A DNA stretch of 62,433 nucleotides from contig CANRMX010000006.1 in assembly GCA_947631855.1 (NCBI GenBank), forward strand, positions 1-62,433. The letters are read 5' to 3'. Both the position numbers and the translations under genes were made by a program. Shown piece by piece: positions 10,714 through 33,963 of the stretch. This DNA comes from an uncultured Clostridia bacterium. GTDB lineage: Bacteria > Bacillota > Clostridia > Oscillospirales > Acutalibacteraceae. How positions within the stretch are numbered: position 1 is the stretch's first letter; every line of letters starts with the position of its first letter. The notes under the pieces were generated by a model, which saw only the letters and a list, made by a program, of their open reading frames with translations, did no database searches and was not told where the DNA came from.

Positions 10714-11301
10714 ATGACCGACAATTGGGAGGCCCTGCGGGAAGACTGCCTGCACTGCCGCAAATGCGGCCTCTGCGAGACCCGGCACAATGTGGTATTC
10801 GGCGTGGGGCCGCAGAACGCCCGGGTGATGCTGGTGGGGGAGGGCCCTGGCGAAAACGAAGATCTGCAGGGAGAGCCCTTTGTGGGCCGGGGCGGTCAGC
10901 TGCTGGATAAATATCTGGCGGCGGTGGACTTGAGCCGCGAGACCAATGTGTACATCGCCAACATCGTCAAGTGCCGCCCGCCCAAAAATCGGGATCCCCT
11001 GCCCGAGGAGCAGGACGCCTGCATCGGCTGGCTGCGCAACCAGTTTGCCCTGCTGCGGCCGAAGATCCTGGTCTGCCTGGGCCGGGTGGCAGCGATAAAA
11101 CTCATCAAGCCGGACATCAAGATCACCAGGGAGCACGGGATCTTCTTTGAAAAGGGAAACGTGCTGATGATGGCTACCCTGCATCCCGCGGCCCTGCTGC
11201 GCAATCCCAACCAGAAGCCCGCCGCCCTGGAGGATTTTCTCAAGCTCCGGGCGAAGATCGATGAATTGGGACTGGATATTGCGAAAAGCCCAGCTGATTG
11301 A
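10714..11301 (+). CDS. Family 4 uracil-DNA glycosylase with Fe-S cluster
   Basis: 195 residues. The N-terminal CLHCRKCGLCETR supplies two of the four Cys ligands of the [4Fe-4S] cluster of this family; the others lie in the NIVKCRPPKNR and LVCLGRVAA regions. GEGPGENEDLQGEPFVGRGG is the uracil-binding signature, and HPAALLRNP near the C-terminus is the catalytic-loop motif. The enzyme excises uracil from DNA. The ATG at 10714 follows AAAAAGGGGG. The last 16 codons, including the stop, are the first unit of a tandem array that continues to about 11688. Confidence 0.92.
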   Translation: MTDNWEALREDCLHCRKCGLCETRHNVVFGVGPQNARVMLVGEGPGENEDLQGEPFVGRGGQLLDKYLAAVDLSRETNVYIANIVKCRPPKNRDPLPEEQDACIGWLRNQFALLRPKILVCLGRVAAIKLIKPDIKITREHGIFFEKGNVLMMATLHPAALLRNPNQKPAALEDFLKLRAKIDELGLDIAKSPAD

Positions 11302-11688
11302 GATTCCCGGCGTGCTGGCTTTCTCCGTCTCCGTGCAAAGATCGGCGAGCTGGGATTAGAACTTGCAAATTAAGATTCCGCCTCGCCCTACGGGCGAGGG
11401 GAAGTTCCGGTGCGCTGGCTTTCTCTTTCTCCGTGCAACGGTCGATGGACTAGGGCTGGATATTGCGAAAAGCCCACTGATTGAGATTCCCGGCGTGCTG
11501 GCTTTCTCCGTCTCCGTGCAAAGATCGATGAGCTGGGGCTGGATATTGCCAAAAGTCCAACTGACTAAGATTCCCGGTGCGCTGTATTTCTCCGTCTCCG
11601 GGCAAAGATCGACGCGCTGGGGCTGGATATTGCGAAAAGTCCAGCTGATTGAGATTCCCGGCGTGCTGGATTTCTCCGTCTGCCGATC
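11254..11688 (+). repeat. 84-bp tandem array made of the 3' coding end of the glycosylase gene
   Basis: Units start at 11254 (inside the gene), 11338, 11437, 11521 and 11605, with a period of 84 bp (28 codons); the second unit is longer because it contains a palindrome. Read in the gene's frame, the downstream units encode a variant of RAGFLRLRAKIDELG plus LDIAKSPTD and a stop. Unit 4 (11521) differs from the gene over the last 16 codons at eight codons: six synonymous, one amino-acid change and one stop-to-stop change. The copies have no start codon or ribosome site and lie behind the gene's own stop. Confidence 0.9.
11381..11399. repeat. REP-like palindrome inserted in the array
   Basis: CCTCGCCC-tac-GGGCGAGG is a perfect 8-bp palindrome. 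A closely related sequence occurs at 49631-49664 and a looser one at 49591-49619. It interrupts the second unit of the 84-bp array. Confidence 0.7.
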
Positions 11689-11814
11689 AACCGACGGTTG
11701 TGCCGAAATCACCTGCCGGTTCAGTGGAGCCCGCCGCGACTCAACGGCTGGTCGCTTTACAGGAGTGCGGCAAAACGGTATGCTTTTCTCATCCAAAAAC
11801 AAGGAGGCTCTCAC

Positions 11815-12525
11815 ATGAAAGAACTGATGATCCTGGGGACGTTCCACTTTGAAAGCCAGGCGGACGCCGTACACCTGAGCGCCGCCCAACGGGAGCAGCT
11901 GGCCGTGCGGCGGGACGAGATCGGGCAGATTTCCGAGAAGCTGGCGGCATACCGCCCCACCAAGCTGTTTGTGGAGTGCGAAAAAACCCGCCAGGACGCG
12001 CTGGACAAGCGCTACCGGGCATACCTGACCGGCGGCTGCGATGCCCGAAACGACGAGGTGGCGCAGATCGGATTTCGGGTGGCCCGGCAGAACGGCATCA
12101 CCCCCACCGCCATCGACTGGATGGAGCTGGGCGCCGCCACCCGGCCCTATGAGGAGATCGCGGAGCGGCTGGAGCAGGACGCGGCCCTGCATGGGGAGCT
12201 TGCGCCCTATGCCCGCTCCCCGGTGGACTTGGCGCGGCCGGTGTTGGAAAATCTACGGGTGCTCAATCAAAAGGAGTACGTGGACGGGCAGAAGGCGTTT
12301 TATGTAAACCTGGCGCGGCTGGGTATCGAAGAATATTTCGGCATGGGGTGGCTCATCTGGTGGTACCAGCGGAACCTCCACATCTTCGGGAACATCTCCG
12401 CCGAACTGGCGGAAGACGACCGGGGCATGCTGCTCATCGGCGCGGCCCACAAGGGCATTTTGGAGGAATTCTTCGCCGACAGCAAGACCGTATCTCTGGT
12501 CGATCCTCTGGATTATCTGGCCTGA
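11815..12525 (+). CDS. DUF5694 family protein (TraB/TIKI-like fold suspected)
   Basis: 236 residues, opening MKELMILGTFHFESQADAVH. The GTFHF motif near the start and GAAHKGILEEFF near the end are conserved in DUF5694 and resemble the metal-site histidines of TraB/TIKI-type proteins, some of which are peptidases. The activity of DUF5694 is not known. AAGGAGG lies just upstream of the ATG. It begins about 125 nt after the end of the tandem array; its 3' end meets the convergent flippase gene 10 nt away without a visible terminator. Confidence 0.7.
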   Translation: MKELMILGTFHFESQADAVHLSAAQREQLAVRRDEIGQISEKLAAYRPTKLFVECEKTRQDALDKRYRAYLTGGCDARNDEVAQIGFRVARQNGITPTAIDWMELGAATRPYEEIAERLEQDAALHGELAPYARSPVDLARPVLENLRVLNQKEYVDGQKAFYVNLARLGIEEYFGMGWLIWWYQRNLHIFGNISAELAEDDRGMLLIGAAHKGILEEFFADSKTVSLVDPLDYLA

Positions 12526-12535
12526 GTGCGGGCCG

Positions 12536-13594
12536 CTATTGCTTCTTCTTCCTGCCGTGGAGGAGCTGATCCGCCACCACCAGCAGCGCCCCGGCCATCA
12601 CCACCAGATAGTAGGTGAAGAACCGCCAGACCATCACCGCCGTGTAGAGGTCGTTGTGGACGAAATAATCCTGGAAAAAGGCCGAGAAGCCGATCTCCTG
12701 GGCGCCCGAGGCCCCGGGCATGGGCATGAAGGACACCGACACCTGCAACAGGCTCTGCACCGCCAGCACCTCAAAATAGTTGACGCTGCGGTAGCCGAAA
12801 GCCAGAAACACGAAGTAGATCACGCTCATCTGCAAGATGAACTGGGGCACCGAGAGCAGGATGCCCAGCAGCAGGCTGCCCCGCTTTTCCCGGAAATTGT
12901 CGGTGTAGCTGCCGAAATCCTTTTCAAATTGATCCACCGCCTCCAGCAGGTGAAAGCGTTCCAGGAACCGCAGCTTGCGCACCAGCCCTTTGGCGATCCG
13001 GCACAGGGTGCGCAGGATGGGCTTATAGAACAGGCTGGGGAAAAAGATGATGGAGCCGCCGTTGATCACCAGTCCCACCACGATAAAGGGGATCAGGGTG
13101 GGATTTTCCGCCCGCAGCCGGGGCAGCATGGCCAAAAAGGACACCAGCGAGCAGGTGAAAAACGCGCACTGGAAGCACACGAATTTCATGAACAGCACCG
13201 CAGTGGAGACGCCAACGGGCACCTTTTCCCGGCGCAGATAGGCCGCCTGCATGGGCTGGCCGCCGGTGGCGCTGGGGGTGATATAGGAATAGTACAGGCC
13301 GATGAGGGATATTTTCATGCAGGTGCCCAGGGAGAGCCGGATGCTCTGGCTGCGCATCAGCAGCCGGGTGATGCCCCCCTCGAAGAAGAAATAGGCCACG
13401 GTCACCGCCACGGCGATGATGAGAAACCCGGGCGTCAGGTGGGCGAAGGTGTGGATCACATGGCCGAATTCCCGATTGAACACGCCGAAAAGCACCATCG
13501 CCAGGATGGTGGCCAGAATATACAGCAGTCCCCAGGGGATCTTCCGTTTTTTCTTCGGGGATTCGTCCGTCTGCACAGGCAGGCTCCTTTCCAT
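12536..13594 (-). CDS. Lysylphosphatidylglycerol synthase-type flippase domain protein (UPF0104)
   Basis: About 352 residues and eight predicted membrane spans, for example LLYILATILAMVLFGVF and FLIIAVAVTVAYFFFEGG. The family motif SYITPSATGGQPMQA and the late FMPMPGASGAQEIGFSAFF identify the transmembrane domain found in MprF. The soluble lysyl-transferase domain of MprF is absent, so it is a stand-alone flippase-like member that probably moves a lipid across the membrane. The start is uncertain: ATG 13594 has no clear ribosome site, while TTG 13627 lies close behind AGCAGGA. Confidence 0.8.
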   Translation of the reverse strand: MERSLPVQTDESPKKKRKIPWGLLYILATILAMVLFGVFNREFGHVIHTFAHLTPGFLIIAVAVTVAYFFFEGGITRLLMRSQSIRLSLGTCMKISLIGLYYSYITPSATGGQPMQAAYLRREKVPVGVSTAVLFMKFVCFQCAFFTCSLVSFLAMLPRLRAENPTLIPFIVVGLVINGGSIIFFPSLFYKPILRTLCRIAKGLVRKLRFLERFHLLEAVDQFEKDFGSYTDNFREKRGSLLLGILLSVPQFILQMSVIYFVFLAFGYRSVNYFEVLAVQSLLQVSVSFMPMPGASGAQEIGFSAFFQDYFVHNDLYTAVMVWRFFTYYLVVMAGALLVVADQLLHGRKKKQ

Positions 13595-13714
13595 GGGGTG
13601 GATCGGCGGGCAGAAAGCGGGACTCAAATCCTGCTTGATTGCATTTTACCACGGGCCATGGGGGAATGTCAACGCAAAACGTACAATTGATTTTAGACAA
13701 AGGAGATAGATTTT

Positions 13715-14218
13715 ATGCCATTTGATTCTATCATCCAGCCGGAACTGCTGCCGGTCTCCGCCACGCTGCGCCTGCGCAGGTATGACGCCTCCCGGGCGGA
13801 GGACCTGCAAAGGGCGCTGGATTGGTATGGGGACGAAGAGCTTGTCCGTCTGGTGGACGGCCCCGACGCCAAGCCCTATACGGACGTGCGGGGAATGTAC
13901 GCGTATCTGGACCGCAAAGGGGAGGAGTACTGGATCGAGGAACTGGTGGACGGGGAATTCGTGCCCATCGGCGACGTGACCCTCTGCCGGGACGATCTGC
14001 CCATCGTCATCGGCCCAAAGGAGAAATGGGGCCGGCACATCGGTCGGCAAGTGGTACAGACGCTGGTGGAACGCGCCCGGGCACTGGGCTTAGACCATCT
14101 GGGGGTGGAGGAGATTTACGACTACAACCTGCGTTCTCAGAGGATGTTTGAGAGCCTGGGCTTTCAGGTGGTGGAAAAAACCGAGCAGGGCAAACGCTAC
14201 CGGCTGGAACTGCCCTGA
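13715..14218 (+). CDS. GNAT family N-acetyltransferase
   Basis: 167 residues with the acetyl-CoA-binding pattern KEKWGRHIGRQVVQTLVERA (motif A, about 105-125) and the late DYNLRSQRMFESLGF (motif B). The substrate cannot be predicted. AAAGGAGAT lies upstream of the ATG at 13715. A segment of this gene (13834-13884) is present again, diverged, directly behind its stop at 14229-14279. Confidence 0.82.
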   Translation: MPFDSIIQPELLPVSATLRLRRYDASRAEDLQRALDWYGDEELVRLVDGPDAKPYTDVRGMYAYLDRKGEEYWIEELVDGEFVPIGDVTLCRDDLPIVIGPKEKWGRHIGRQVVQTLVERARALGLDHLGVEEIYDYNLRSQRMFESLGFQVVEKTEQGKRYRLELP

Positions 14219-14228
14219 TCCGGCCGCG

Positions 14229-14279
14229 CGAAGAGCTTGTCCACCCGGTGGACGGCCCCGACGCTAAGCCCTGTACGGA
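14229..14279 (+). repeat. Diverged copy of an internal piece of the GNAT gene
   Basis: About 51 bp starting GAAGAGCTTGTCC and continuing GTGGACGGCCCCGACG match 13834-13884 with about five mismatches, at an offset of 395 bp. The copy starts ten bases behind the GNAT stop codon and is not translated from any obvious start. Confidence 0.8.
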
Positions 14280-14342
14280 TTCTCCTGTACGGTAAAGAAG
14301 CACAACAAACAAAACGGATATGGATGTTTAACGAGGTACCCA

Positions 14343-14870
14343 ATGAGATTATTCGTTTCTTTCTCAGCAAGGAAAACCGGTAATTGCGCTCAGATCATTG
14401 ATTTTATCAAGGAGCCGCAGGACAAGGTGATCTATTATATGGATTTGAACACCCATGGGTGCAGCAATTGCGGTTATGAGTGTTTCAAAACACAATGCAA
14501 ATATCTGGGCGATGATGTTTATCGTCTTTACAGCAGTTTTGAGCGCTATGAAAAAGTCATTTTGCTTGTACCGATGTACTGCGGAAATCCTTCCTCCCTA
14601 TATTTTGGCTTTAACGAAAGAAGCCAGGACTTTTTCATGCACCATGAAAAAGAATATTTATCCTTTGCGGAAAGACTTTTCATCATCGGCGTCTATGGAA
14701 GCGAGAAGGAATCCCCAGATTTTATAAGGTGTTTTGAAAAATGGTTTGAGGGGACTCCTTATCCACATCATGTCCTGGGAATCGAACGCCACTTGTATCA
14801 GCAGACAATGAAGGACAGCGTGCTCGATATTGAGCCGATTAAAAAGGCATTACAGGGGTTTATGCGATAA
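14343..14870 (+). CDS. Flavodoxin-like NAD(P)H-dependent FMN reductase family protein
   Basis: 175 residues. The opening MRLFVSFSARKTGNCAQIID resembles the flavodoxin phosphate-binding loop. CSNCGYECFKTQC (about 40-52) is the Cys cluster seen in iron-sulfur flavoprotein-like reductases, and VPMYCGNPSSLY resembles the second flavin loop. The coding sequence is clearly AT-richer than its neighbours (for example TATTTATCCTTTGCGG) and uses different codons, a sign of recent transfer. The GAGG before the ATG (GAGGTACCCA) is a weak ribosome site. The natural electron partner is unknown. Confidence 0.7.
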   Translation: MRLFVSFSARKTGNCAQIIDFIKEPQDKVIYYMDLNTHGCSNCGYECFKTQCKYLGDDVYRLYSSFERYEKVILLVPMYCGNPSSLYFGFNERSQDFFMHHEKEYLSFAERLFIIGVYGSEKESPDFIRCFEKWFEGTPYPHHVLGIERHLYQQTMKDSVLDIEPIKKALQGFMR

Positions 14871-14891
14871 AAACAGGCTGATTGGGGAAGA

Positions 14892-14979
14892 CCCGGCCGC
14901 ACCCGCCCCCGCGCCCTTTGGGCGCGGGGGCGCCTCCCGTTCCGGGAGGCCGCGCGAGGAGCGCGCGGGTGCGGCCGGG
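14892..14979. repeat. GC-rich cloverleaf palindrome
   Basis: An outer perfect 15-bp stem (14892-14906 with 14965-14979, CCCGGCCGCACCCGC and its complement) encloses three adjacent hairpins: 14907-14916/14920-14929 (10 bp), 14932-14939/14943-14950 (8 bp) and 14951-14955/14961-14965 (5 bp, sharing its last base with the outer stem). The whole 88 bp can fold into a four-arm junction on either strand. It lies between the low-GC flavodoxin gene and the convergent spmB. There is no T-run, so it is not a classical terminator. Confidence 0.85.
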
Positions 14980-14991
14980 GGCCCGATCCCA

Positions 14992-15507
14992 CTACAACAG
15001 CTTCACCGTGAGCACCGCAAGCACCACCGCTGTCGCGTCTCCCAAAAGGGCAGCGGGCACCGTGTACCGCAGCCGTTTATAGCCCCGCGCCCCAAAGTAC
15101 ACCGCCACCGCGTAAAAGGTGGTTTCCGTGGAGGACGCCAGCACCGAGGCGATCTTCCCGGTTTCGCTGTCCGGGCCGAAGCGCTCCATCAGCGACAGGG
15201 TATAGGCCGAAGCGCCGCTGCCGGAGATGGGCCGCAAAAGCGCCAGGGGCAGCACCTCCGGAGAGATGCCCACCACCTCCGCCAGGGGCCGCGCCAGCGA
15301 ACAGACGAGCTCCAGCAGCCCCGAGGCCCGCACCAACGTCACCGCCACGATCAGCCCGATCAGGGTGGGCAGCAGCCGCGCCGAGGTGGCGAGCCCCTCC
15401 TTTGCGCCCTCCAGAAAGGTATCGAACACGTCCACGCCCTTGACGAACCCAAACAGCACGATCGCCCCTACGATCACGGGCATGGCCGCCGCGCCCACCT
15501 GTGCCAT
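14992..15507 (-). CDS. spmB: Spore maturation protein B
   Basis: 171 residues and four or five hydrophobic segments. The family pattern is clear: IVGAIVLFGFVKGVDVFDTF, RPISGSGASAYTLSLMERFG and SSTETTFYAVAVYFGA, the nucleoside-recognition (Gate) type membrane fold. SpmB acts with SpmA in dehydration of the spore core in Bacillus and Clostridium. GAGGAGG precedes the ATG at 15507. It lies 13 nt behind spmA on the same strand, as is usual. Confidence 0.93.
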   Translation of the reverse strand: MAQVGAAAMPVIVGAIVLFGFVKGVDVFDTFLEGAKEGLATSARLLPTLIGLIVAVTLVRASGLLELVCSLARPLAEVVGISPEVLPLALLRPISGSGASAYTLSLMERFGPDSETGKIASVLASSTETTFYAVAVYFGARGYKRLRYTVPAALLGDATAVVLAVLTVKLL

Positions 15508-15520
15508 CCTGTTTTCCTCC

Positions 15521-16099
15521 TCAGTTGATTCTCCGCCGCTCCGCCAGCTTGCAGAAGGCCACGCAGGTGAGCAGCGCCGCGCAGGAGGTGATCCAGATCT
15601 GGGGCAGGATGCCAAAAGGCTCCGCGCTGCCGCATGAAGCCCGCATGGCGGCCATGTTCACCGGCAGCAGCTGGATGGACGCGGTGTTGATCACCACGAA
15701 CAGGATCATCCCTTTCGTCGGCGCGTCTCCGGGATTTTTCGCGGCCATGGCCTCCATCGCCGCCAGACCCAGCGGGGTGGCCGCGTTGCCCAGGCCCAGG
15801 AAATTGGCGGAAAGGTTCATGCAGATCTTCCCTTGAATTTCCCCATCTTCCTGGTATTCGGGGAACAGCCGGCCGATCACCGGCCCCAGCGCCGATGCGA
15901 ACAGCCCGGTGAGGCCGCTCTTTTCGGCGATCTTCAAAAACCCCAGCCAGGCGCACATGCTGCCCAGCAGGGACATTGTCAATTCCACGGCGGTAGCCGC
16001 GCCCTCCAGTAGCGCGACGGAGAGGTCGGCGATCCGCCCTGTGGCCAGGGCGCAGAGCACGCTCAGGACGATCATACCGGCCCAGAGCACATTGAGCAT
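15521..16099 (-). CDS. spmA: Spore maturation protein A
   Basis: 192 residues, polytopic membrane protein of the nucleoside-recognition fold. Recognisable stretches are MLNVLWAGMIVLSVLCALAT, ICMNLSANFLGLGNAATPLG and FVVINTASIQLLPVNMAAMR. It works with SpmB (next gene) in spore core dehydration and heat resistance. GGAGGGAG lies directly upstream of the ATG. The pair is divergent from the dipeptidase gene. Presence of spmAB supports a spore-forming host. Confidence 0.93.
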   Translation of the reverse strand: MLNVLWAGMIVLSVLCALATGRIADLSVALLEGAATAVELTMSLLGSMCAWLGFLKIAEKSGLTGLFASALGPVIGRLFPEYQEDGEIQGKICMNLSANFLGLGNAATPLGLAAMEAMAAKNPGDAPTKGMILFVVINTASIQLLPVNMAAMRASCGSAEPFGILPQIWITSCAALLTCVAFCKLAERRRIN

Positions 16100-16126
16100 T
16101 TTTCTCCCTCCGTTTCTCCATTCCCC

Positions 16127-16155
16127 TTGACTTTGCCGCCAAAAGAGGGTATCGT
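16127..16155 (+). promoter_or_regulatory. Promoter of the dipeptidase gene
   Basis: TTGACT (16127-16132) and TATCGT (16150-16155) with 17 bp between them, 33 nt ahead of the start codon. Confidence 0.6.
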
Positions 16156-16187
16156 TATGGCAGACTCAATGCAGGAAAGGTGATACT

Positions 16188-17567
16188 ATGCTGTTTGGCG
16201 AAAAGATTTTGGCCTATTGGGACGATATCCTGTCCGATTTGGGCAAGCTGGTGGCGGTGCCCTCGGTGGCGACTCCCACCCCGGGGCCCCATCCCTTTGG
16301 CGACGACTGCGCAAAGGCGCTGGATACCGTGCTGGCCATGGCAGAGGGCTATGGGCTCAAGACCAAAAATGTGGATTATTACGCGGGGCACGCCGAGTAC
16401 GGCGAGGGCGAGGGCAACGCGGTGGTCATGGCCCATGTGGACGTGGTGCCCGCCGGCGAGGGCTGGGATACGGAGCCCTATCAACTGGTGATCGCCGACG
16501 GCCGGGCCTTTGGCCGGGGCGTGGCGGACGACAAGGGTGCGGCCATCGTGGCGCTGCACTGCCTGCGGGCCCTCAAGGATGCGGGCGTTCAGGGCAAGCG
16601 CAAGCTGCGGGTGATCTTCGGCTGCGGCGAGGAGATCGGCATGGCCGACATTCCCCACTATTTTGCCCAGGAGCAGCTGCCCGACATGGGCTTCACGCCC
16701 GATTCCAGCTACGGCATCTGCCACTGTGAAAAGGGCATCATCAATCTGCGCGTCACCGGCAGGAACGATTCCCCGGTCGTCAAGACTTTCTCCGCCGGTA
16801 CCGTCTCCAACGCGGTGCCCGCCAAGGCCCTGTGTGAAATTCGCTGCACCGCCGCGGATCGGGAAAAGCTCCTGCGGGCCGCCGAGTCCGCCGCCATCGG
16901 ATTTGAGATCACCCCCACCGAGGACGGCGCATCCATCCTCGCCAAGGGCAGAGCCTCCCACGCGGCGTTCCCTCAGAACGGCCAGAACGCAGCGGCCCAT
17001 CTTGTCAAGCTCCTGGCCCAGGTCTTTGGCGCGGAATCTCTGGGGAGCTTCTTCGCCTTTGTCTTTGACAAGATCGGCCTGGCCACCGACGGCTCCAACA
17101 TCGGCGTGCAGTGCGCGGATGAGTCCAGCGGGCCGCTCACCTTCAATCTGGGGCTGCTCTCTGCCGACGAAACTTCCTGCAGCCTGACGGTGGATATCCG
17201 CTATCCCGCCACCCTGCAGGGCGGGCCCATCAGCGAGACCATCCGGGCCGCCGCGGAGCAGTACGGCCTTACCTACACGCTGCTGTCCGACGCCGAGCCC
17301 CTCTATCTGCCCAAGGAGAGCCCGTTGATCTCCCTGCTGTCCGGCGCGTATCGGGACGTCACCGGGGAGGACTGCACGGTCTTCTCCATGGGCGGCGGCA
17401 CCTATGCCCGGCAGATGCACGGCCGGGGCGTGGCCTTCGGGCCGGGCTTCCCGGGCGATGAGGACGGCCACGAGCACGACGTCAACGAGCGCATCCATCT
17501 GGATTCCCTCAAGCGCCACGCGGAGATCTGTTTGGAGGCCATGTACCGAATGCTCACCGCGGATTAA
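16188..17567 (+). CDS. M20 family dipeptidase, PepV/Sapep type
   Basis: 459 residues, the usual length for PepV. Zinc-site motifs in order: MAHVDVVPAGEGW (first His and its Asp), GRGVADDKGAA (bridging Asp), GCGEEIGMADI (Glu pair) and FGPGFPGDEDGHEHDVNER (last His). The family removes N-terminal residues from dipeptides and requires Zn or Mn. AGGAAAGGTGAT precedes the ATG. The last ten codons including the stop (EAMYRMLTAD) are repeated twice downstream. It is convergent with ackA across a 415-bp gap. Confidence 0.9.
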   Translation: MLFGEKILAYWDDILSDLGKLVAVPSVATPTPGPHPFGDDCAKALDTVLAMAEGYGLKTKNVDYYAGHAEYGEGEGNAVVMAHVDVVPAGEGWDTEPYQLVIADGRAFGRGVADDKGAAIVALHCLRALKDAGVQGKRKLRVIFGCGEEIGMADIPHYFAQEQLPDMGFTPDSSYGICHCEKGIINLRVTGRNDSPVVKTFSAGTVSNAVPAKALCEIRCTAADREKLLRAAESAAIGFEITPTEDGASILAKGRASHAAFPQNGQNAAAHLVKLLAQVFGAESLGSFFAFVFDKIGLATDGSNIGVQCADESSGPLTFNLGLLSADETSCSLTVDIRYPATLQGGPISETIRAAAEQYGLTYTLLSDAEPLYLPKESPLISLLSGAYRDVTGEDCTVFSMGGGTYARQMHGRGVAFGPGFPGDEDGHEHDVNERIHLDSLKRHAEICLEAMYRMLTAD

Positions 17568-17865
17568 GCGTTCTTGTCAATTGTATGGGAGCCTCCGGCG
17601 GCTTATGCCTTGGCCCTCCACTGTGAACTCGTTTTGGTATTTTTTAGGGCACCCCCGATCTTCCTTGAAAGGCCATGTACCGCATACTCACTGCGAACTA
17701 AGTGTTCTTGTCAATTGTATGGATGCCTCCGGCGGGTTATGCCTTGGCCCTCCACTGTGAACTCGCTTTCGTATTTTTTAGGGCACCCCCGATGGGGGTG
17801 CCCTGATTTTCCTTGAAAGCCCGTACCGCATGCTCACTGCGGACTAAGCGCCTTGTCAATTGTAT
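17541..17865 (+). repeat. Tandem repeats of the dipeptidase 3' end plus downstream terminator region
   Basis: Three units begin with the gene's last codons at 17541, 17675 and about 17821 (periods 134 and 146 bp). Each carries the YRxLTAx codons, a stop, then TTCTTGTCAATTGTATGG or its shortened form. The second unit holds a full terminator hairpin, the first has lost one arm of it (about 12 bp). The third unit encodes YRMLTAD-stop exactly as the gene does, with three base differences that are all synonymous. Confidence 0.9.
17781..17810 (+). terminator. Terminator in the second repeat unit behind the dipeptidase gene
   Basis: GGGCACCCCC (17781-17790) and GGGGGTGCCC (17794-17803) form a perfect 10-bp stem with a three-base loop, followed by TGATTTT. 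Confidence 0.8.
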
Positions 17866-17934
17866 GGGAGCAGCGGGTTATGCGCCCGGAAGTCGGCAAT
17901 CGCCAGTGGTGTGCCGGGCTTTCTCTTTGATCCC

Positions 17935-17966
17935 ATAAAAAATGACCTCCCTGCAAAACAGGGAGG
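17935..17966 (-). terminator. ackA terminator
   Basis: Read on the minus strand, CCTCCCTG (17959-17966) pairs with CAGGGAGG (17946-17953), followed by a T-run (17936-17942 on the plus strand is A-rich). It ends the acetate kinase transcript. Confidence 0.85.
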
Positions 17967-17982
17967 CCATTCATTTCTATGC

Positions 17983-19279: not shown

Positions 19280-19314
19280 AGGAGCAGCACACGCCGCCCG
19301 GCGCCACAACGCCT

Positions 19315-24474: not shown

Positions 24475-25567
24475 GCGCGGGCGGAGGATCGGAGCGCTTC
24501 TGGCGGCCCTGGCGGTGTGCTGCTATCTGGCCGCCCCGGGCGTCCGGGCCCAGGACGATCTGCTGCCTCCCGACGAAGTTGCGCCCCAGGAATACAACTA
24601 CAAGACCGGCACGGTGGAACGCACCACCCTGGTCCGGGAGCAGCAGGGCAGAGGGACGATCTACTATCCCAAGCTCTATCAGGTGAAAAACGAGCAGGCC
24701 GGCGCCACGCTGGTGGAATACAAGGTTAAAGCCAGAGATCAGGTGAAGGCCGGGGACGTGCTGGCGGTGCTGTCCATCGAGGGCGTGGATATCCGGGTGC
24801 AGGAGGCCCAGCGGGCCGTGGAGCGCATCCAGCGGGAGACCGCCCAGGGCGTGGCCGAGCGGGAAGACCGCTTGGAGGACGCCCGGGAGACTTTGGCAGA
24901 GTCCAGCGGATACGGCTGGGAGCTGCAAAATATCGAAGTGCAGCGGCAGGAGACGGAGCTGGAACGGTATCGGACACAGCAGGCGTATGCCCTTTCCCTC
25001 CAGCAGAAGGAACTGGAAAAAGCCCAAAAGGCCCAGGCCGGCACGGAGCTGAAAGCCCCGGTAGACGGGGAGATCATTTCCGTGGCCTCCGATCTGCGCA
25101 GCGGAGATTCCGTGGATGCCGGCAAGGTGCTGGTGTATATGCACGCCCTGGACGTGGCGGTGATCACGGTGGACAACAGCTACCACACGCTGCGCTATAA
25201 CATGGAGGTCACGGTGGACGATCCCCGGAGCATTCTCCGGGAGGGCCTTACCGGCCGGGTGGTGGCCACGGACGACATGGTGCCGGATGAGACCACGACC
25301 AGCAATGTGGCCCTGGTGGAGCTGGACGATCTCGAGGTCGCGGCGGAGATACCCGGCCTCTGCAACGCGACCGCCAACACGGCGTATCTGGAAAACGTGC
25401 TGATGGTCCCGTCCAACGCCATCACCCTGGAGGACGGCAGGACATACGTGACGAAGCTCAAGGACAATATGCTGCAAAAGCGCCGGGTGATCACGGGCAT
25501 GAACACCAAGGACGGCACCTGGATCCTCCAGGGCGTTTCCGAAGGCGACGTGCTGGTGCTGGAGTAG
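24461..25567 (+). CDS. HlyD/MacA-like adaptor protein 3
   Basis: 368 residues with a signal peptide (GALLAALAVCCYLAAPGVRA before Gln-Asp) but no lipobox, so it is either secreted or held by an uncleaved signal anchor. It has a lipoyl half (KARDQVKAGDVLAVLSIEGV), a coiled coil (about 105-185), a second half (LKAPVDGEIISVASDLRSGD) and barrel domains ending GVSEGDVLVLE. Its start overlaps the end of adaptor 2 by 14 nt, indicating coupling. It precedes the permease by 11 nt. Confidence 0.8.
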   Translation: MSRIKRGRRIGALLAALAVCCYLAAPGVRAQDDLLPPDEVAPQEYNYKTGTVERTTLVREQQGRGTIYYPKLYQVKNEQAGATLVEYKVKARDQVKAGDVLAVLSIEGVDIRVQEAQRAVERIQRETAQGVAEREDRLEDARETLAESSGYGWELQNIEVQRQETELERYRTQQAYALSLQQKELEKAQKAQAGTELKAPVDGEIISVASDLRSGDSVDAGKVLVYMHALDVAVITVDNSYHTLRYNMEVTVDDPRSILREGLTGRVVATDDMVPDETTTSNVALVELDDLEVAAEIPGLCNATANTAYLENVLMVPSNAITLEDGRTYVTKLKDNMLQKRRVITGMNTKDGTWILQGVSEGDVLVLE

Positions 25568-25578
25568 GGGGTGCGGAG

Positions 25579-28392: not shown

Positions 28393-28396
28393 CCGT

Positions 28397-29074
28397 ATGG
28401 AATGTATGATTCACGCGCAAGGCATCAAAAGGAGCTTTAAGACCAGCGACGGAGAATTCTGGGCGCTGAAGGGGATCGATCTGGAGGCGCCCAAGGGAGC
28501 GCTGACCATCCTCAAGGGGCGCTCGGGCTCCGGCAAGACCACGCTGCTCAACATCCTGGGCGCGCTGGATATGCCCACCGAGGGCAGCGTGCTCTACGAG
28601 GACGAGGACGTCACCCAGATGGACGAGCGGGCCCGCACGCTGTTCCGGCGGACGCAGATCGGCTTCGTGTTCCAGTCGGTGGCGCTGATCCCCATGATGA
28701 CCGCTTTTGAAAATGTGGAATACGCCCTGCGGCTCACCCGTTTCACCGGCGACCGCACGGCCCGCGCCATGGAGTGCCTGAAGCTGGTGGGTCTCACCCA
28801 GCGGGTGCACCATCTGCCCCAGGAGCTTTCCGGCGGCGAACAGCAGCGGGTGGCCATTGCCCGGGCCATCGCCCACAGGCCCCGGGTCATCTTTGCCGAC
28901 GAGCCCACCGGCGAGCTGGACACCAACACCGGCCTGCAGGTGGTGAAAATCTTCAAGGATTTGACCCAGGCGGAGGGCGTGACCATCGTGATGACCACCC
29001 ACGACACCGGCCTGATGGAGATCGGCGATGTTGCCTACGAATTGGAGGATGGTGAGATAGTCCATGGCGAATGA
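28397..29074 (+). CDS. ABC transporter ATP-binding protein, MacB/LolD type (first)
   Basis: 225 residues. Walker A GRSGSGKTT, Q-loop VFQSVALIP, signature LSGGEQQRVAIARA, Walker B VIFADEPTGELD and switch His in MTTHD are all intact, so it should hydrolyse ATP. The family serves FtsX-type permeases such as the gene before it. GGAGG lies ahead of the ATG at 28397. Its 3' end overlaps the start of the second ATPase gene by 11 nt. Confidence 0.92.
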   Translation: MECMIHAQGIKRSFKTSDGEFWALKGIDLEAPKGALTILKGRSGSGKTTLLNILGALDMPTEGSVLYEDEDVTQMDERARTLFRRTQIGFVFQSVALIPMMTAFENVEYALRLTRFTGDRTARAMECLKLVGLTQRVHHLPQELSGGEQQRVAIARAIAHRPRVIFADEPTGELDTNTGLQVVKIFKDLTQAEGVTIVMTTHDTGLMEIGDVAYELEDGEIVHGE

Positions 29075-29975
29075 AGTGATGATCGAATGCGAGAACCTGG
29101 TGAAAATTTACAAGACGGAGGACATCGAAGTCCTGGCGCTGCAGGGGCTGGAAGTGACCATCGAAAAGGGCGAGCTGATGGCCGTCATCGGCAACAGCGG
29201 CTCGGGCAAATCCACCTTCCTCAATATGCTGGGCGGCCTGGATCGGCCCTCTGCCGGGCGGCTGATCGTGGACGGCAAAGACCTGTTCAAGCTGAACGAA
29301 AAGGAACTGGTGGAATACAAGCGGAACACCGTGGGCTTTGTCTGGCAGAACAACGCCCGCAACCTGCTGCCCTATCTTACGGCATGGCAGAACGTGCAGA
29401 TGCCCATGCTGTTCGGCACCGTGGAGAACAAAAAGGAGCGCGCCCTGGAGCTGCTGGACATGGTGGGCCTGAGCCACCGCAAAAACAACCGGCTGAGCCA
29501 GCTGTCCGGCGGCGAGCAGCAGCGCATCGCCATTGCCATCGCTTTGGCCAACGATCCCAAGCTGCTGCTGGCAGATGAGCCCACCGGCTCGGTGGACGCC
29601 AAGACCGGCGCGTATATTCTGGATATGTTCCGGGACATCAACCGCAACACGGGGATCACCATTGTGATCGTCACCCACGACCGGCTGCTGGCCAAAAAGG
29701 TGAGCCGGGTGGTGTCCATCCGGGATGGGAAGATCAGCTCGGAGCGGGTGATGAAGCAGAGCTATCTGGACAGGATGCAGGACATCACGGCGTTTACGGA
29801 GGAAAAGGAAGTCCAGGACGAGTATGTGGTGCTGGATCGTGCCGGACGGGTGCAGATTCCCCGGGAGATGCTGGAGCAGCTCCATGTTCCGGGCAACCGG
29901 GTGCGCATGGAGATGAAGGACGGCAGGATCGTCATCGAGGCCCCGCCCAAAACGGAAAAGCAGCCGGAGGCATAG
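29064..29975 (+). CDS. ABC transporter ATP-binding protein (second) with C-terminal AbrB-like domain
   Basis: 303 residues. An intact LolD/MacB-type ATPase (GNSGSGKST, LSGGEQQRIAIAIA, LLLADEPTGSVD, VTHD) occupies about 1-235. A linker leads to residues 253-293, reading VVLDRAGRVQIPREMLEQLH and VRMEMKDGRIVIEAP, which fits the swapped-hairpin AbrB/SpoVT fold (strand, GR-x-x-IP-x-E helix, two strands). AbrB domains usually bind DNA as dimers; here it could dimerise the ATPase or sense the transporter. Last gene of the export operon, followed by a terminator. Confidence 0.88.
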   Translation: MANEVMIECENLVKIYKTEDIEVLALQGLEVTIEKGELMAVIGNSGSGKSTFLNMLGGLDRPSAGRLIVDGKDLFKLNEKELVEYKRNTVGFVWQNNARNLLPYLTAWQNVQMPMLFGTVENKKERALELLDMVGLSHRKNNRLSQLSGGEQQRIAIAIALANDPKLLLADEPTGSVDAKTGAYILDMFRDINRNTGITIVIVTHDRLLAKKVSRVVSIRDGKISSERVMKQSYLDRMQDITAFTEEKEVQDEYVVLDRAGRVQIPREMLEQLHVPGNRVRMEMKDGRIVIEAPPKTEKQPEA

Positions 29976-29989
29976 CCCGGAATAAAAAG

Positions 29990-30041
29990 CACAAAACAAC
30001 ACCGCCGGGCCCGAAAACCCTGACGGTGTTTTGTGTTTTTC
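29990..30041. terminator. Terminator of the export operon
   Basis: CACAAAACaaCACCG (29990-30004) pairs with CGGTGTTTTGTG (30024-30035) with a small bulge and is followed by TTTTT; the A-rich left flank makes it usable on both strands. Confidence 0.75.
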
Positions 30042-30141
30042 TCCAATCCCATTATAGCACATCCCACAAGGCATTTCAAGACTTGTTCTGCGCCGCTTCC
30101 CGTGGTATCATACTGGTACCATGCAGAAAGGAGGCGTGCCT

Positions 30142-32379
30142 ATGGATTCGGAAGTTGATCGGGAGGAGCAGGCACATCTGGCCCGAATTTTGGAGATCAT
30201 CCGGGGCAATCTGGAAAAGCTGTGCGGGCAGCGGCAGCCGCTGAAAGGAGACGTCCTTGCCGCACGAAAAGAGATGTGGAACGACGGCCCTCATATAGTC
30301 CGGAGCTTTGACGACGTGATCGAGCTGAACGATGCCGATCGGGAGGTGGCGGACCGGGAAAGGCAGTTTGACCAAAACGAACGGGAGATCGCCCGGCTGG
30401 GCAGGATGGAACAGTCGCCCTACTTTGCCCGGCTGGATTTTGAAAACGCCGGCGGCGGAGGCCAAAGGAAGGTGTACATCGGGGCATATAGCCTGCGGGA
30501 CGGGGCCTCGGGCCGGGTGGTCGTGGTGGATTGGCGCGCGCCGGTGGCCTCCATGTTTTATGATTTCGACCTGGGCCCCTGCTTTTTTGAAGCGGCGGGG
30601 GCCCGCAGGGCAGTCAACATCACCTTGAAGCGGCAGTTCAAGATCGAGGGCGGCCAGTTGCAGCTGCTGTACGACACGGATTCTGCCATGTACGACGAGA
30701 TTTTAGGTCAGGTGCTTTCCGGCAGCACCGACCGCCGGCTGCGGGTGATCGTCAGCAGCATCCAGAAGGAACAGAACGCCGCCATCCGCAGCGACCCGGG
30801 GCGCTCCTGCCTGATCTACGGCCTGGCGGGCAGCGGCAAGACCAGCGTGGGGATGCACCGGCTGGCCTACCTGCTCTACCACGACCGGGAAAAGCTGGGG
30901 AGCGAGAATCTGCTGATCCTCTCCAACAACCGCCTGTTCGGCGCCTATATCGCCGCGATCCTGCCGGAGCTGGGCGAGAGCCCGGCGCAGCAGCTGACCT
31001 TCGGCGAGCTGCTGCAAACCTCCCTTGGGAATCGTTACGAGGCGGAGGGGTATTACGAGCAGCTGCGGGCGCTGGAGGCAGCGCCAGATTCCCAGCGGGC
31101 GCGGGGACTTCAAATCAAGTATGCGCCGGAGTTTTTGCGGGCCTGCATCGACCACTTTCTGGCGTTCCCTTTCCGCGCCCCGGAGCTTCGCTACCGTGGA
31201 GAGGTCGTCCTATCCCAGGAGTTGCTGCGGGAAAAATGGCAAAAGCTGCGGTTTTCCTCCTTCAAGGCCGCCCGGGCGATGTTCGAGCAATTGATGCGGG
31301 AAACGGTGGAGGGCTTTTTCCATCGGAACCAGGAGCGCGTGCGGGCGGACCTGGCGGCCAGCCGGGAGGGGTATCTCTCCGACCGGGAGGTGGATTTCCT
31401 CTACCGCAAGCTGCGCAAACGGTACGTGACCGCCGCGCTGGAGGAGGCGGTGCGGATCAACCGCATCGACCCGGCCCTGCAATTGATGGATTTGTTGTGG
31501 GCGTATCTGGAGAAGACCGGCGGCGACACCCGGATAGCTGTGACGCTGCGCCATGCGCTGGAGGGGAAGAAGCTGCTTTTTGAAGACGCGCTGCTGTACC
31601 TCTTTGTCCGGGTGCTAATGGGGGAGACCCACCCGGTGGAGAAGGTGCGCCATGTGGTGGTGGACGAATCTCAGGACTGCAGCCCGGTGCAGCTGTACAT
31701 CATGCAATATCTGTACCCCAAAAGCAGCTTCACTCTGCTGGCGGATATCCATCAGGCGGTGGAGCCCCTCACCACCGTGGGAGACTACGGCCTTTATGAG
31801 CAGGTGTTTGGCGGCGGGCTGCTCAAAATCCGCCTGAGCAGGTGCTACCGCTCCTCCAGCGAGATCAACGCTCTGGCCTTCCGCCTGCTGGAGGAACGGG
31901 AACCCAACATCCGGGAGGAATACGACTGCTTCCACCGGCCGGTGAAAAAGCCCCGGTATATCGTGGGCCCCGATCCCCTGCGCTCTATCGGGCAGGTGTT
32001 GGAGACGCTGGGACGGTACAAGTCCGTGGCGGTGATCACCAAAGACGAAGCGGACGCCGCGGCGGTGGGAGATGCCCTGGGGGACTTCCCCGACGTGCAG
32101 GTGATCCTGTCGCCGGACGGAGAACTGCAAAGCCGGGTGACGGTCCTGCCGCTGCTGCTGGCCAAAGGGCTGGAATTCGATGGGGTGATTTCGCTGAACT
32201 TCTTCACTGCCTATCAGGGCGATGCCCGGCTGCACCGCAAGGTGTATCTGGGCTGCACCCGTGCGCTGCATGAACTGGTCTTTCTGGAGCGCACTTTGCC
32301 CGCAGCGGCGAAGGACTTCCTGCCCTACATGGCGCTGGAGGCGCAGGGATCAAGCGGCGCGGACTGCCAAAACACTTGA
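30142..32379 (+). CDS. helD: HelD-like UvrD/PcrA-family helicase (RNA polymerase recycling)
   Basis: 745 residues. A coiled-coil N-terminal arm (about 1-100) and the HelD-specific segment YFARLDFENAGGGGQRKVYI with VDWRAPVASMFYDF precede the ATPase. Walker A is YGLAGSGKTSVGMHRLAYLL, Walker B VVDESQDCSPVQ, and motif V-like GLEFDGVISLNF lies near the end. HelD proteins insert into RNA polymerase channels and release stalled enzyme from DNA and RNA. AAAGGAGG is placed 7 nt before ATG 30142. A possible -10 TATCAT near 30105 suggests its own promoter. It is a monocistronic gene. Confidence 0.85.
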   Translation: MDSEVDREEQAHLARILEIIRGNLEKLCGQRQPLKGDVLAARKEMWNDGPHIVRSFDDVIELNDADREVADRERQFDQNEREIARLGRMEQSPYFARLDFENAGGGGQRKVYIGAYSLRDGASGRVVVVDWRAPVASMFYDFDLGPCFFEAAGARRAVNITLKRQFKIEGGQLQLLYDTDSAMYDEILGQVLSGSTDRRLRVIVSSIQKEQNAAIRSDPGRSCLIYGLAGSGKTSVGMHRLAYLLYHDREKLGSENLLILSNNRLFGAYIAAILPELGESPAQQLTFGELLQTSLGNRYEAEGYYEQLRALEAAPDSQRARGLQIKYAPEFLRACIDHFLAFPFRAPELRYRGEVVLSQELLREKWQKLRFSSFKAARAMFEQLMRETVEGFFHRNQERVRADLAASREGYLSDREVDFLYRKLRKRYVTAALEEAVRINRIDPALQLMDLLWAYLEKTGGDTRIAVTLRHALEGKKLLFEDALLYLFVRVLMGETHPVEKVRHVVVDESQDCSPVQLYIMQYLYPKSSFTLLADIHQAVEPLTTVGDYGLYEQVFGGGLLKIRLSRCYRSSSEINALAFRLLEEREPNIREEYDCFHRPVKKPRYIVGPDPLRSIGQVLETLGRYKSVAVITKDEADAAAVGDALGDFPDVQVILSPDGELQSRVTVLPLLLAKGLEFDGVISLNFFTAYQGDARLHRKVYLGCTRALHELVFLERTLPAAAKDFLPYMALEAQGSSGADCQNT

Positions 32380-32404
32380 CAATCCGGCTGGAAGGGCGTA
32401 GAAT
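32376..32404 (+). promoter_or_regulatory. Promoter of the DUF6054 gene
   Basis: Consensus TTGACA (32376-32381) and TAGAAT (32399-32404), spacer 17 bp. The -35 element overlaps the end of the helD coding region. Confidence 0.8.
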
Positions 32405-32426
32405 CGACCCAAAAGGAGGGAGCCCC

Positions 32427-32753
32427 ATGGCAAAATTGGAGTGTACCGTCGGCGGCCAGTTCGACGAGGTTTTGCACAGGATCGAGAACGGCATCATGAG
32501 CGGCAGCGTATCCGCCAGCCTGGAGGATTCCAGCGATTTTCACGGCGGCGGTGCCCGGTGCAGCGTGCGGGTGTTCGAGCGCTACAGCTGGGCAGGCGGC
32601 AACCGCGTGAGCATGACCGTCACCCTGTTCCAGTGCGCGGGCGGGCCGGTGCAGCTTTCGGCGATCACGGCGGGCGGCAGTCAGGCGGTGTTTTTCAAGG
32701 TCAACACTTTCGGCGAGGAGGCTTTTCTGGATAAGCTCCGGGAATGCCTGTAA
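32427..32753 (+). CDS. DUF6054 family protein, 108 aa
   Basis: MAKLECTVGGQFDEVLHRIE and SVSASLEDSSDFHGGGARC, then AITAGGSQAVFFKVNTFGEE, are the conserved blocks of DUF6054, a small soluble protein of Clostridia with no known function. AAAAGGAGG precedes the ATG at 32427 and a near-consensus promoter lies just upstream, so it should be well expressed. A strong terminator follows at once, making it a single-gene unit. Confidence 0.8.
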   Translation: MAKLECTVGGQFDEVLHRIENGIMSGSVSASLEDSSDFHGGGARCSVRVFERYSWAGGNRVSMTVTLFQCAGGPVQLSAITAGGSQAVFFKVNTFGEEAFLDKLRECL

Positions 32754-32774
32754 ACCGTCCCACAAATGAAATGA

Positions 32775-32801
32775 CCCTCCGGGTGCGTCCCGGAGGGTTT
32801 T
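32775..32801 (+). terminator. Terminator behind the DUF6054 gene
   Basis: CCCTCCGGG (32775-32783) and CCCGGAGGG (32789-32797) form a perfect 9-bp stem, followed by TTTT. Confidence 0.85.
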
Positions 32802-32811
32802 CGTATGTTTG

Positions 32812-33471
32812 TCAGATCTCCCTGAGCACCCACTGAAGGCCGTTGGTGAAGAGCCGCATGAACATGGGGTGCTGCCACACCGACAGAATGTGCCCCGGCG
32901 ACAGGGCGCAGATGCGGCCTTTGTCCACCTCCCGGGTGTACCCGGCGGGCTGCACGCCGCCGGACGTCGAGCTGCTCTGGAGGAACACTTTGGCGTCCTC
33001 TGCCAGCACTTTAAGCTGATAGTGCTCGTCCCGCACGGTAAAATCCTCCACGCCAGCCGCCACCGGGTGGGCGGGGTCCGTCACATGGAGCCCAACGTCG
33101 CACCGGGGCGGGTGGCCGAAGAAATCAAACCCGATGAGATCGTTATAGGCGGGCACTCCGTAATTCATGAAGGCCAGTCCCGCGTGGACGGCAAAAAATC
33201 CGCCGCCTGCCCGGATGTAGCTTTCCAATTCCGCCGGCCCCACCTCGGTGACGCCCGGCTCGAACCAGGGGGCCGTGTTGGCAGCGTTGATGGAATTGCC
33301 CTTGCAGCAGACCACGGCGGGGTATTCCGCCAGCAGCGCCGGCGTGAGGCAGTCCTTGGCGTCCTGCATCAGGTCGAATGCAAAGCGGTCGTCCTGCCGG
33401 GCGGCCAGTCCCCGGCGGATCACCTCGGCGGGGTGCCAGTTGTCGTCGCAGATCACAAGGATTTTTTGCAT
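32812..33471 (-). CDS. ThuA-like / glutamine amidotransferase-fold protein
   Basis: 219 residues. The pattern MQKILVICDDNWHPAEVIRR, YIRAGGGFFAVHAGLAFM, FFGHPPRC and VTDPAHPVAAGVEDFTVRDE is that of the ThuA (trehalose-utilisation) family, a class I glutamine-amidotransferase-like fold. The enzymatic role is unsettled even in better-known members. GGAGGGAG precedes the ATG. It lies downstream of the PAP2 gene on the same strand, with the 150-bp tandem array between them. Confidence 0.8.
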   Translation of the reverse strand: MQKILVICDDNWHPAEVIRRGLAARQDDRFAFDLMQDAKDCLTPALLAEYPAVVCCKGNSINAANTAPWFEPGVTEVGPAELESYIRAGGGFFAVHAGLAFMNYGVPAYNDLIGFDFFGHPPRCDVGLHVTDPAHPVAAGVEDFTVRDEHYQLKVLAEDAKVFLQSSSTSGGVQPAGYTREVDKGRICALSPGHILSVWQHPMFMRLFTNGLQWVLREI

Positions 33472-33570
33472 GGGTCTCCCTCCTGTTTTCCTGTGGATTT
33501 GATTCCATCATACCCAAAGACAGGGGTTTTGTCAAACGGTTTCTGCAATCGATCTTCCCGAGGAAGCCTT

Positions 33571-33963
33571 TTGTTATTTCCGTGATTCTTGCCAATCCCG
33601 CAGTTTCTTGTCTGCCCACAGCACCGCCAGCGCCGAGAAGACACCCAAAAGCGCTCCTGCCAAAGCGCTTTAGTGAGGATAATTGTGCTCCCCCGCAGCG
33701 CGGGGGAGCACAGAAAAAGATATTTACTTTTTCCTCAATTGCAAGGCCCGCAATTTCTTGCCTACCCACAGCACCGCCAGCGCGGAGAGCGTGCCCAAAA
33801 GAGCCGACTGCCAATGCGCTTTAGTGAGGATAACTGTGCTCTCCCGCAGCGCGGGGGAGCACAAAAAAGATTGTTATTTTTTTCTCAATTGCAAGGCCCG
33901 CAGTTTCTTGTCTGCCCACAGCACTGCCAGCGCCGAGAGAGTACCCAACAATCCGCCTGCCAA
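33571..33963 (-). repeat. 150-bp tandem array of the PAP2 gene 3' end with its terminator
   Basis: Reference points at 33601, 33751 and 33901 (CAGTTTCTTG or CAATTTCTTG) are exactly 150 bp apart. The unit at 33901 is inside the gene; two more follow its stop. Each downstream unit repeats the coding end (LAVLWADKKLR or a variant), a stop codon and a GTGCTC...GAGCAC hairpin. Over the last 26 codons the nearest copy differs from the gene by eight synonymous and two amino-acid changes; the farthest copy has the alternative end RDWQESRK-stop. Confidence 0.9.
33685..33711. terminator. Hairpin in the farther PAP2 repeat unit
   Basis: GTGCTCCCCCGC (33685-33696) pairs with GCGGGGGAGCAC (33700-33711). 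A second version with one changed base lies about 150 bp away at 33836-33862, between the gene and its first copy, with T-rich flanks on the minus strand. Confidence 0.75.

Follow-up and report, generated by a model that had tools for sequence, protein, structure and literature searches.

Tandem arrays of gene 3' ends downstream of unrelated genes in two lineages of a Neglectibacter-like genus of Clostridia

RESULTS

Three genes in the window are followed by copies of their own 3' ends

The DNA studied here, referred to as the window, is a stretch of 62,433 nucleotides from an uncultured Clostridia bacterium of the Acutalibacteraceae (assembly GCA_947631855.1, contig CANRMX010000006.1, positions 1 to 62,433) and constitutes contig 6 of the source genome (G000; 1.84 Mb, 59 contigs, 81% complete). 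Three of its genes, encoding a uracil-DNA glycosylase (UDG), an M20 peptidase and a PAP2 phosphatase, are followed by four, two and two tandem copies, respectively, of their own 3' coding end and stop codon. Tandem Repeats Finder (TRF) returned six rows for the window, and the three top-scoring ones have periods of 84 (11407-11681), 134 (17536-17793) and 150 bp (33597-33964). The first-pass annotation of this DNA had described tandem copies that start inside the coding end and include the stop at all three genes, with repeat lengths of 84, 134 to 146 and 150 bp, and both the anatomy and the lengths were borne out by TRF and by codon-level reading.

The UDG gene (10714..11301, forward strand; PF03167, E 1.6e-33) has its last 66 nt duplicated downstream. 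As defined by TRF and codon-level reading, its array (11236..11681, forward strand) comprises the gene tail and copies at 11320, 11420, 11503 and 11587, at spacings of 84, 100, 83 and 84 bp, and the repeated peptide is the UDG tail, FLKLRAKIDELGLDIAKSPAD followed by the stop. The copy at 11320 has different last few residues and the copy at 11420 is frameshifted near its end; three of the four copies carry CTCCGT in place of CTCAAG, a change not found in the gene. The ratio of non-synonymous to synonymous differences per site (pN/pS) between gene and copy was 0.13 to 0.40 for the four copies. A hairpin, CGCCTCGCCCTACGGGCGAGGGG (11379..11401), lies between the second and third tails.

Downstream of the M20 peptidase gene (16188..17567, forward strand; PF01546), the array (17536..17883, forward strand) consists of the gene tail, AMYRMLTAD and the stop, and copies at 17672-17701 and 17824-17847 together with 3' flank, at spacings of 134 and 146 bp. 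Copy 2 differs from the gene by three synonymous and two non-synonymous changes and copy 3 by three and none (counts from the alignment of 18 loci described below, the third copy being placed from a separate codon-level reading). The hairpin TTAGGGCACCCCCGATGGGGGTGCCCTGA (17778..17806) separates copies 2 and 3. The PAP2 gene (33874..34443, reverse strand; PF01569) is followed by an array of 150-bp units (33574..33967, reverse strand), with the gene tail at 33951-33874, copies at 33801-33724 and 33651-33574, and the hairpins TGTGCTCTCCCGCAGCGCGGGGGAGCACA (33835..33863) between tails 1 and 2 and TGTGCTCCCCCGCAGCGCGGGGGAGCACA (33684..33712) between tails 2 and 3. Gene-copy pN/pS was 0.13 and 0.61 for the two copies; the earlier statement that copies differ mainly synonymously from their gene thus holds for most copies but fails for the last PAP2 copy, which has 6.5 synonymous and 11.5 non-synonymous differences.

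The three arrays have no sequence in common, and none of their repeat families has a member at another locus. The stretch holding the UDG array had no strong second match in its own genome (best other match, E 4e-4, past the array), and Rfam at the gathering threshold returned no match in the window. A fourth gene, encoding a GNAT acetyltransferase (13715-14218), differs from these three in that an internal rather than a terminal piece has been copied past its own stop: 51 bp at 13834..13884 (forward strand) recur, 90% identical, as a partial copy at 14229..14279 (forward strand), 10 bp past the stop.

Arrays of gene 3' ends recur in two non-sister species

Recurrence was assessed with one genome per species by a DNA-only scan for direct repeats of at least 35 bp and at least 72% identity lying 25 to 700 bp apart, excluding pairs both within one gene or both fully coding. 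The samples were 862 kb of G000, 450 kb of G023 (a non-sister congener, approximately 160 contigs, 86% complete), 400 kb each of G004 and G022, and 377 kb together of five other congeners (63 to 80 kb each; G008 was under-called, with 63% coding). Arrays of 3' ends were found at 8 of 762 predicted genes in G000 (approximately 1 in 100) and at 10 of 383 in G023 (approximately 1 in 40), compared with none of 1,012 genes in the 1.18 Mb of the seven other congeners (18 in 1,145 versus 0 in 1,012; Fisher P = 1.2e-5). Among all arrays detected, those overlapping a 3' or a 5' coding end numbered 8 and 1 of 36 in G000, 10 and 0 of 28 in G023, 0 and 0 of 15 in G004, and 0 and 1 of 3 in G022; the five other congeners had no arrays. 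These counts, with 18:1 for 3' ends, agree with the proposal in the first-pass annotation that a genome-wide process, rather than three accidents, produced the arrays of the window.

That annotation had also suggested scanning the genome for recurring gene 3' ends. A stop-anchored scan, in which the last 24 residues of each gene were compared with any stop-anchored peptide at most 900 bp downstream and three shuffled gene/downstream pairings served as controls, returned further cases. The first G000 sample, which includes the window, gave 5 matches in 405 gene calls (controls 0, 0 and 0); one of the five was a non-coding repeat, and UDG was not called there. In the other first samples, there were 5 matches in 184 genes of G023, 2 in 324 of G004 and 1 in 390 of G022 (controls 0). 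Second samples, scanned at a looser threshold, gave 5 in 333 for G000 (controls 1, 2 and 0) and 6 in 224 for G023 (controls 1, 1 and 0). Rows were removed as tandem paralogous genes (G023 L145 and L151), as a paralogue (G022 L139) or as non-coding repeats or doubtful gene calls (G000 L040; G004 L175 and L167), and G000 L241 and L246 and G023 L276 and L257 (9915-10829) of the second samples were not counted as tails. L239, L264 and L113 resemble tail copies and stand outside the 18 loci of the DNA scan. L113 (CAMWRX010000064.1, 3103-3650) belongs to a more distant genome and has the tail TDNITVDC followed by the stop, a strong hairpin and an all-synonymous copy of an 8-residue tail. Across 80 loci of named genomes, 2 matches (L113 being one of them) in 693 genes versus 3, 2 and 2 in the controls showed no excess.

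A UDG array is also present in G023, with units of 102 to 104 bp and a different spacer, and of the 92 UDG loci tested (two or more of which come from one contig) only those of G000 and G023 had one. In the M20 tree, G000 grouped with G004 (99/98) and G023 with G043 (100/99), whereas the UDG tree left both species unplaced. The M20 tree makes G000 and G023 non-sisters, and shared descent of the habit between sister species was accordingly rejected. The habit of forming arrays is thus patchy and, at UDG, either arose independently in two lineages or is ancestral and mostly lost.

The genes that carry arrays belong to many unrelated families. Several have roles in DNA repair or in the hydrolysis of nucleotides (two UDG genes, one in each species, MGMT/Ogt, an HhH-GPD/NUDIX protein like MutY, and a NUDIX protein), and there are three aldo/keto reductases, numbers too small to test in either case. 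Loss of mismatch repair or of a hairpin nuclease was rejected as a cause, as MutS scored above the cut-off in all 29 genomes of the genus and SbcD did so in both affected genomes.

Arrays lie over 3' ends and have locus-specific units

In G000 and G023 together, 18 arrays lay over 3' coding ends and 1 over a 5' end (binomial P = 7.6e-5), a comparison to be read with the lower certainty of gene starts than of stops in the DNA scan. The bias held for minimum coding overlaps from 6 to 36 nt (19:1, 18:1 and 14:1 at 9, 24 and 36 nt). The sole array over a predicted gene 5' end in these two genomes was L246 of G000 (2196-3238), with units of approximately 150 bp and the hairpin TGGTATCCCCGCCTGCGGCGGGGATACCA. 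Gaps between divergent genes were poor in arrays, holding 3 of the 53 arrays placed (11 at stretch edges being left out), compared with 113 such gaps among the 493 of at least 60 bp.

At the 18 loci, the coding tail in the unit was 24 to 123 nt long and the distance from gene tail to nearest detected copy 85 to 288 nt; unit lengths were specific to the locus. This distance was a multiple of 3 at 6 of 18 loci, or at 8 of 18 when the TRF periods of 84 (UDG) and 150 (PAP2) are used, and thus gives no clear sign of selection for fusion in frame. The alignment of the last copy ended anywhere from 2 nt short of the stop to 135 nt beyond it. The best copies were 79 to 97% identical to their gene, so that recent and old duplications stand side by side. 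Copies generally lay head to tail, at periods between tens and hundreds of base pairs, although L242 and a few other two-copy loci were not plainly head to tail. In L263, L272 and L274 (gene 9665-10915), the 3' flank is repeated along with the tail, as in true tandem units, and L272 and L263 consist simply of such units, each holding the tail and a terminator-like hairpin.

By eye, four further intergenic duplications in G000 (L022, 5765-6299; L023, 12454-12870; L039, 8574-8953; L040, 17594-18371) contain no coding tail and hold either promoter-like sequence upstream of genes or a terminator after a cold-shock-like gene. Six occurrences of the sequence GTGCGCAGCCGGAGCCGCGCACCGAAAAA were counted in the initial 462 kb of G000 sampled (L039 and L040 included), partly within promoter-side repeats.

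Arrays of this kind might be produced by assembly, if contigs of co-existing strains were joined end to end and left two allelic tails in tandem. The G000 and G023 assemblies are fragmented and incomplete and resemble metagenome bins, their copies differ as alleles do, and the single-contig congener G022 had no 3'-end case in 337 genes. Joined contigs are, however, hard to reconcile with arrays of four to six units of near-constant period and shared derived features, with breakpoints at gene 3' ends and not at 5' ends, with UDG arrays of different period in two separately assembled species, and with the lack of a 3'-end case in the stretches sampled of G004 and the other multi-contig congeners. 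We consider such an artefact quite improbable as the general explanation; four to six units of near-constant period make it unlikely for the longer arrays, and two-copy loci are less protected.

Differences between genes and copies are mainly synonymous

For 35 copies at 18 loci, synonymous divergence (pS) was 0.272, non-synonymous divergence (pN) 0.082 and non-coding divergence 0.107. The locus-weighted Nei-Gojobori (NG) pN/pS was 0.30 (bootstrap 0.22 to 0.43), and the ratio of second-position to fourfold-site divergence was 0.36 (0.25 to 0.55) between gene and copy and 0.53 (0.25 to 1.04) between copies. The stop was retained in 32 of 33 readable copies, a count favored by the requirement that alignments reach the stop region; 5 of 35 copies had an in-frame nonsense codon and 20 of 35 had gaps in the coding part.

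Such a bias is largely expected, because an intact gene can change only synonymously and a copy drifting beside it yields roughly half the per-site non-synonymous rate. Duplication followed by drift was simulated from real tails under two transition biases, two strengths of gene constraint and three ages (detection rule and flank constraint being our own choices) and gave pN/pS of 0.41 to 0.55, second-position/fourfold ratios of 0.59 to 0.73 and a stop kept in a fraction of 0.77 to 0.89. No special process is required for most of the synonymous bias, although one is for a modest part of it. The pattern that the first-pass annotation took as evidence is thus real but weaker evidence than was claimed, as duplication and drift already lead one to expect the non-synonymous rate per site to be about halved. 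The excess over drift was concentrated in the G023 UDG array, L272 and L153 and was absent from L155 and L274; the G023 L155 copies differed among themselves at 22 of 152 second and 18 of 152 third positions, as under drift. Diversity-generating retroelements are marked by adenine-directed, non-synonymous variation of a 3' end, which is not what a pN/pS of 0.30 describes (adenine bias and reverse transcriptase were not looked for).

Hairpins, mobile elements and unit borders

A spacer hairpin (stem of at least 9) was present in 10 of 18 arrays and after 201 of 510 other genes, no significant excess (P = 0.14). In G000, G+C-rich intergenic hairpins were flanked by direct repeats in 20 of 188 cases (12 loci), compared with 1 of 188 when the flanks were swapped and with 6 of 199 gaps that lack a hairpin; this association was not seen in G023 (7 of 113 hairpins versus 8 of 90 hairpin-free gaps). 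The hairpin as common cause was rejected, the association being confined to G000 and missing from the array spacers taken as a whole. A dispersed hairpin around GGTCTCCCCGCCC(NNN)GGGCGGGGAGACC occupies approximately 10 places in G000 (on C1, C4, C5, C18, C23, C27, C36 and C59), some of them near contig ends, and the dispersed hairpin of G023 differs (CAAAGGGGGGAGC..GCTCCCCCCTTTG). The hairpin sequence of the MGMT locus recurs at approximately 10 other places in G000. Just past the UDG array starts a dispersed non-coding repeat of approximately 110 bp (11683-11791), with copies on contig 49 of G000 (80%) and contigs 48 (84%) and 36 (75%) of G004.

The RAYT (REP-associated tyrosine transposase) family Y1_Tnp (PF01797) had no match in G000 or G023, two incomplete genomes in which absence of a gene family is uncertain, and was present in 9 of the 29 genomes of the genus, among them G012 and G040, whose sampled stretches showed no arrays. 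These data bear on the possibility that a dispersed palindromic hairpin, of the type of repetitive extragenic palindromes (REP) or miniature inverted-repeat transposable elements (MITE), or another dispersed repeat, inserted next to the stop with a long target duplication. The flanking repeats of G000 hairpins, the recurring MGMT-locus hairpin and the dispersed repeat just past the UDG array would suit it. That the association is missing from G023, that array spacers are not enriched in hairpins and several arrays lack a strong one, and that Y1_Tnp occurs in genomes whose sampled stretches had no arrays while going unmatched in the two affected ones all make such insertion improbable.

At 36 unit borders of 24 nt each, no shared motif was found: the top 5-mer occurred in 5 borders, compared with 5 to 11 in 20 control draws (borders of old copies are approximate). 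The first-pass annotation had proposed looking for such a motif, and had noted that no mobile-element protein lies at the three sites, which agrees with our searches. Among the window neighbor genes tested, mobile-element, integrase and transposase families had no match; matches were to PTAC, DUF5694, LPG_synthase_TM, GNAT, two Gate proteins, acetate kinase, HIGH_NTase1, a UvrD-like helicase, DUF6054, ThuA and a P-type ATPase, and two neighbors (14343-14870 and 34463-34690) remained without any match. A site-specific recombinase, such as an integrase, that acts at gene 3' ends and rebuilds the gene with a tail of its own, in the way of genomic islands at tRNA genes, could explain why the tail is restored with an unshifted stop in 32 of 33 copies. 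Considering the lack of a border motif, of an integrase or transposase match among the neighbors tested and of cargo, and the unrelated targets, we judge a recombinase highly improbable. The integrase-like activity or small non-autonomous element put forward in the first-pass annotation consequently found no support, as the units are specific to their loci, Y1_Tnp was unmatched in both affected genomes and no mobile-element protein was matched among the neighbors tested.

DISCUSSION

Genes of many unrelated families in two non-sister lineages of a Neglectibacter-like genus are followed by tandem copies of their own 3' ends. We favor, somewhat more than all other readings taken together, one in which minisatellite-like tandem duplications of gene tail, stop and 3' flank have proliferated in a lineage-specific manner, with copies that drift and some exchange between strains. 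In the two lineages, short intergenic tandem duplications would form and persist unusually often, by slippage or illegitimate exchange close to transcription-unit 3' ends, and unequal recombination would then add or remove units. That copies share features which the gene lacks and repeat at a fixed period indicates that array units multiply from one another. A duplication reaching into a 3' coding end would be harmless, the upstream copy remaining the functional tail and ending at its own stop, and duplications that reach a gene from its 3' side would therefore be tolerated and seen. The downstream tail would drift while the real tail changes only synonymously, leaving mainly synonymous differences between gene and copy, and strain exchange, or turnover passing copies through the coding position, probably adds a modest extra synonymous divergence. 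At about half of the loci, the unit carries a strong hairpin.

Several findings weigh against this reading. The synonymous excess was above that of simulated drift (second-position/fourfold ratio 0.36 versus 0.59 to 0.73; NG pN/pS 0.30 versus 0.41 to 0.55, with overlapping edges), stops were kept in 32 of 33 copies versus a simulated 0.77 to 0.89, and fourfold divergence was 0.204 versus a simulated 0.104 to 0.167. The UDG copies of G023 differ among themselves at 22 of 69 third and only 2 of 69 second positions. In L239, a Sir2 gene and its copy, compared over 21 codons, show differences at 12.5 of 14.7 synonymous sites and at 9.5 of 48.3 non-synonymous ones (pN/pS 0.23, and 0.06 in a 14-codon core; 6 of 21 residues differ) and are about equally far from the G023 orthologue (pN/pS 0.40 and 0.41), although this locus was found by protein similarity, which favors conserved residues. 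In L242 of G000 (1139-1387), a recent array (97%), a 69-bp tail copy ends exactly at the stop and 111 bp of unrelated DNA lie between the tails, a geometry that simple tandem duplication does not give without later deletion.

The main rival, serial displacement of C termini, speaks to several of these points. Homologous DNA of another strain, linear or as a small excised circle, would recombine into the 3' end and bring a new tail with its flank, pushing the old tail downstream, so that every tail now lying downstream would earlier have served some strain as its coding tail. The synonymous excess beyond drift, the pattern among the G023 UDG copies and the geometry of L242 would follow, and the Sir2 gene and copy, different at nearly all synonymous sites and equidistant from the orthologue, are suggestive of independently evolving coding tails. 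The rhs genes offer a reported precedent with circular intermediates (PMC2935791). Displacement does not account for the repetition of tail and flank at a fixed period in several arrays or for the CTCCGT shared by three UDG copies and absent from the gene; many copies also fit drift, and the Sir2 copy itself has 6 amino acid changes in 21 residues. As a general explanation, we think displacement unlikely, but it may act at some loci, and the transformation or recombination scar considered in the first-pass annotation may account for a minority of them.

A further reading, to which we give slightly less credence than to displacement, is that in the two lineages a process aimed at transcription-unit 3' ends (coupled to transcription termination, for example, or working by serial uptake of strain DNA) repeatedly puts a new functional tail before the old one in housekeeping genes. 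If so, the arrays would be an ordered fossil record of former C termini. If duplication with drift is correct, they would represent a kind of bacterial minisatellite that recurs, is restricted to certain lineages and takes the 3' end of the gene itself as its unit. Such arrays might then serve as strain-typing loci for a little-known gut lineage and as a natural record of tail evolution, with the caution that a "synonymous" downstream copy largely reflects neutral decay beside a constrained gene. The asymmetry between 3' and 5' ends could stem from tolerance by selection or from a mutational bias at transcript ends.

In the literature searched, we found no description of tandem arrays of gene 3' ends, although a differently worded paper could have escaped. 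Dispersed palindromic intergenic repeats are present here as in REP/RAYT systems, but Y1_Tnp was unmatched in both affected genomes, and we know of no long gene-tail duplications as a REP feature. Genomic islands at gene 3' ends restore the target 3' end and leave a second copy at the far side; the arrays differ from them in having no integrase match, no cargo, no common core and many unrelated host genes. For rhs of Enterobacteriaceae, old C-terminal ends are reported to persist in silent arrays downstream of an intact gene (PMC2935791). The likeness lies in old tails arrayed after an intact gene, but rhs tips are distinct, laterally acquired sequences on a conserved core, whereas here near-identical tails with mostly synonymous differences follow housekeeping genes at near-constant period.

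Bacterial minisatellites or variable-number tandem repeats (VNTR), including the mycobacterial interspersed repetitive units (MIRU-VNTR), occupy several loci per genome. The arrays resemble them in their short intergenic tandem units, their several loci and their restriction to lineages. The rnc-fpg1 repeat region offers a parallel, being reported as long only in the Mycobacterium tuberculosis complex and as varying between isolates (PMC2734929). MIRU-type elements place the same unit at many loci, whereas the three arrays of the window have no common sequence and each unit derives from the 3' coding end and stop of the gene at that locus. It is this, the use of each gene's own 3' end as the repeated unit, that sets the arrays apart.

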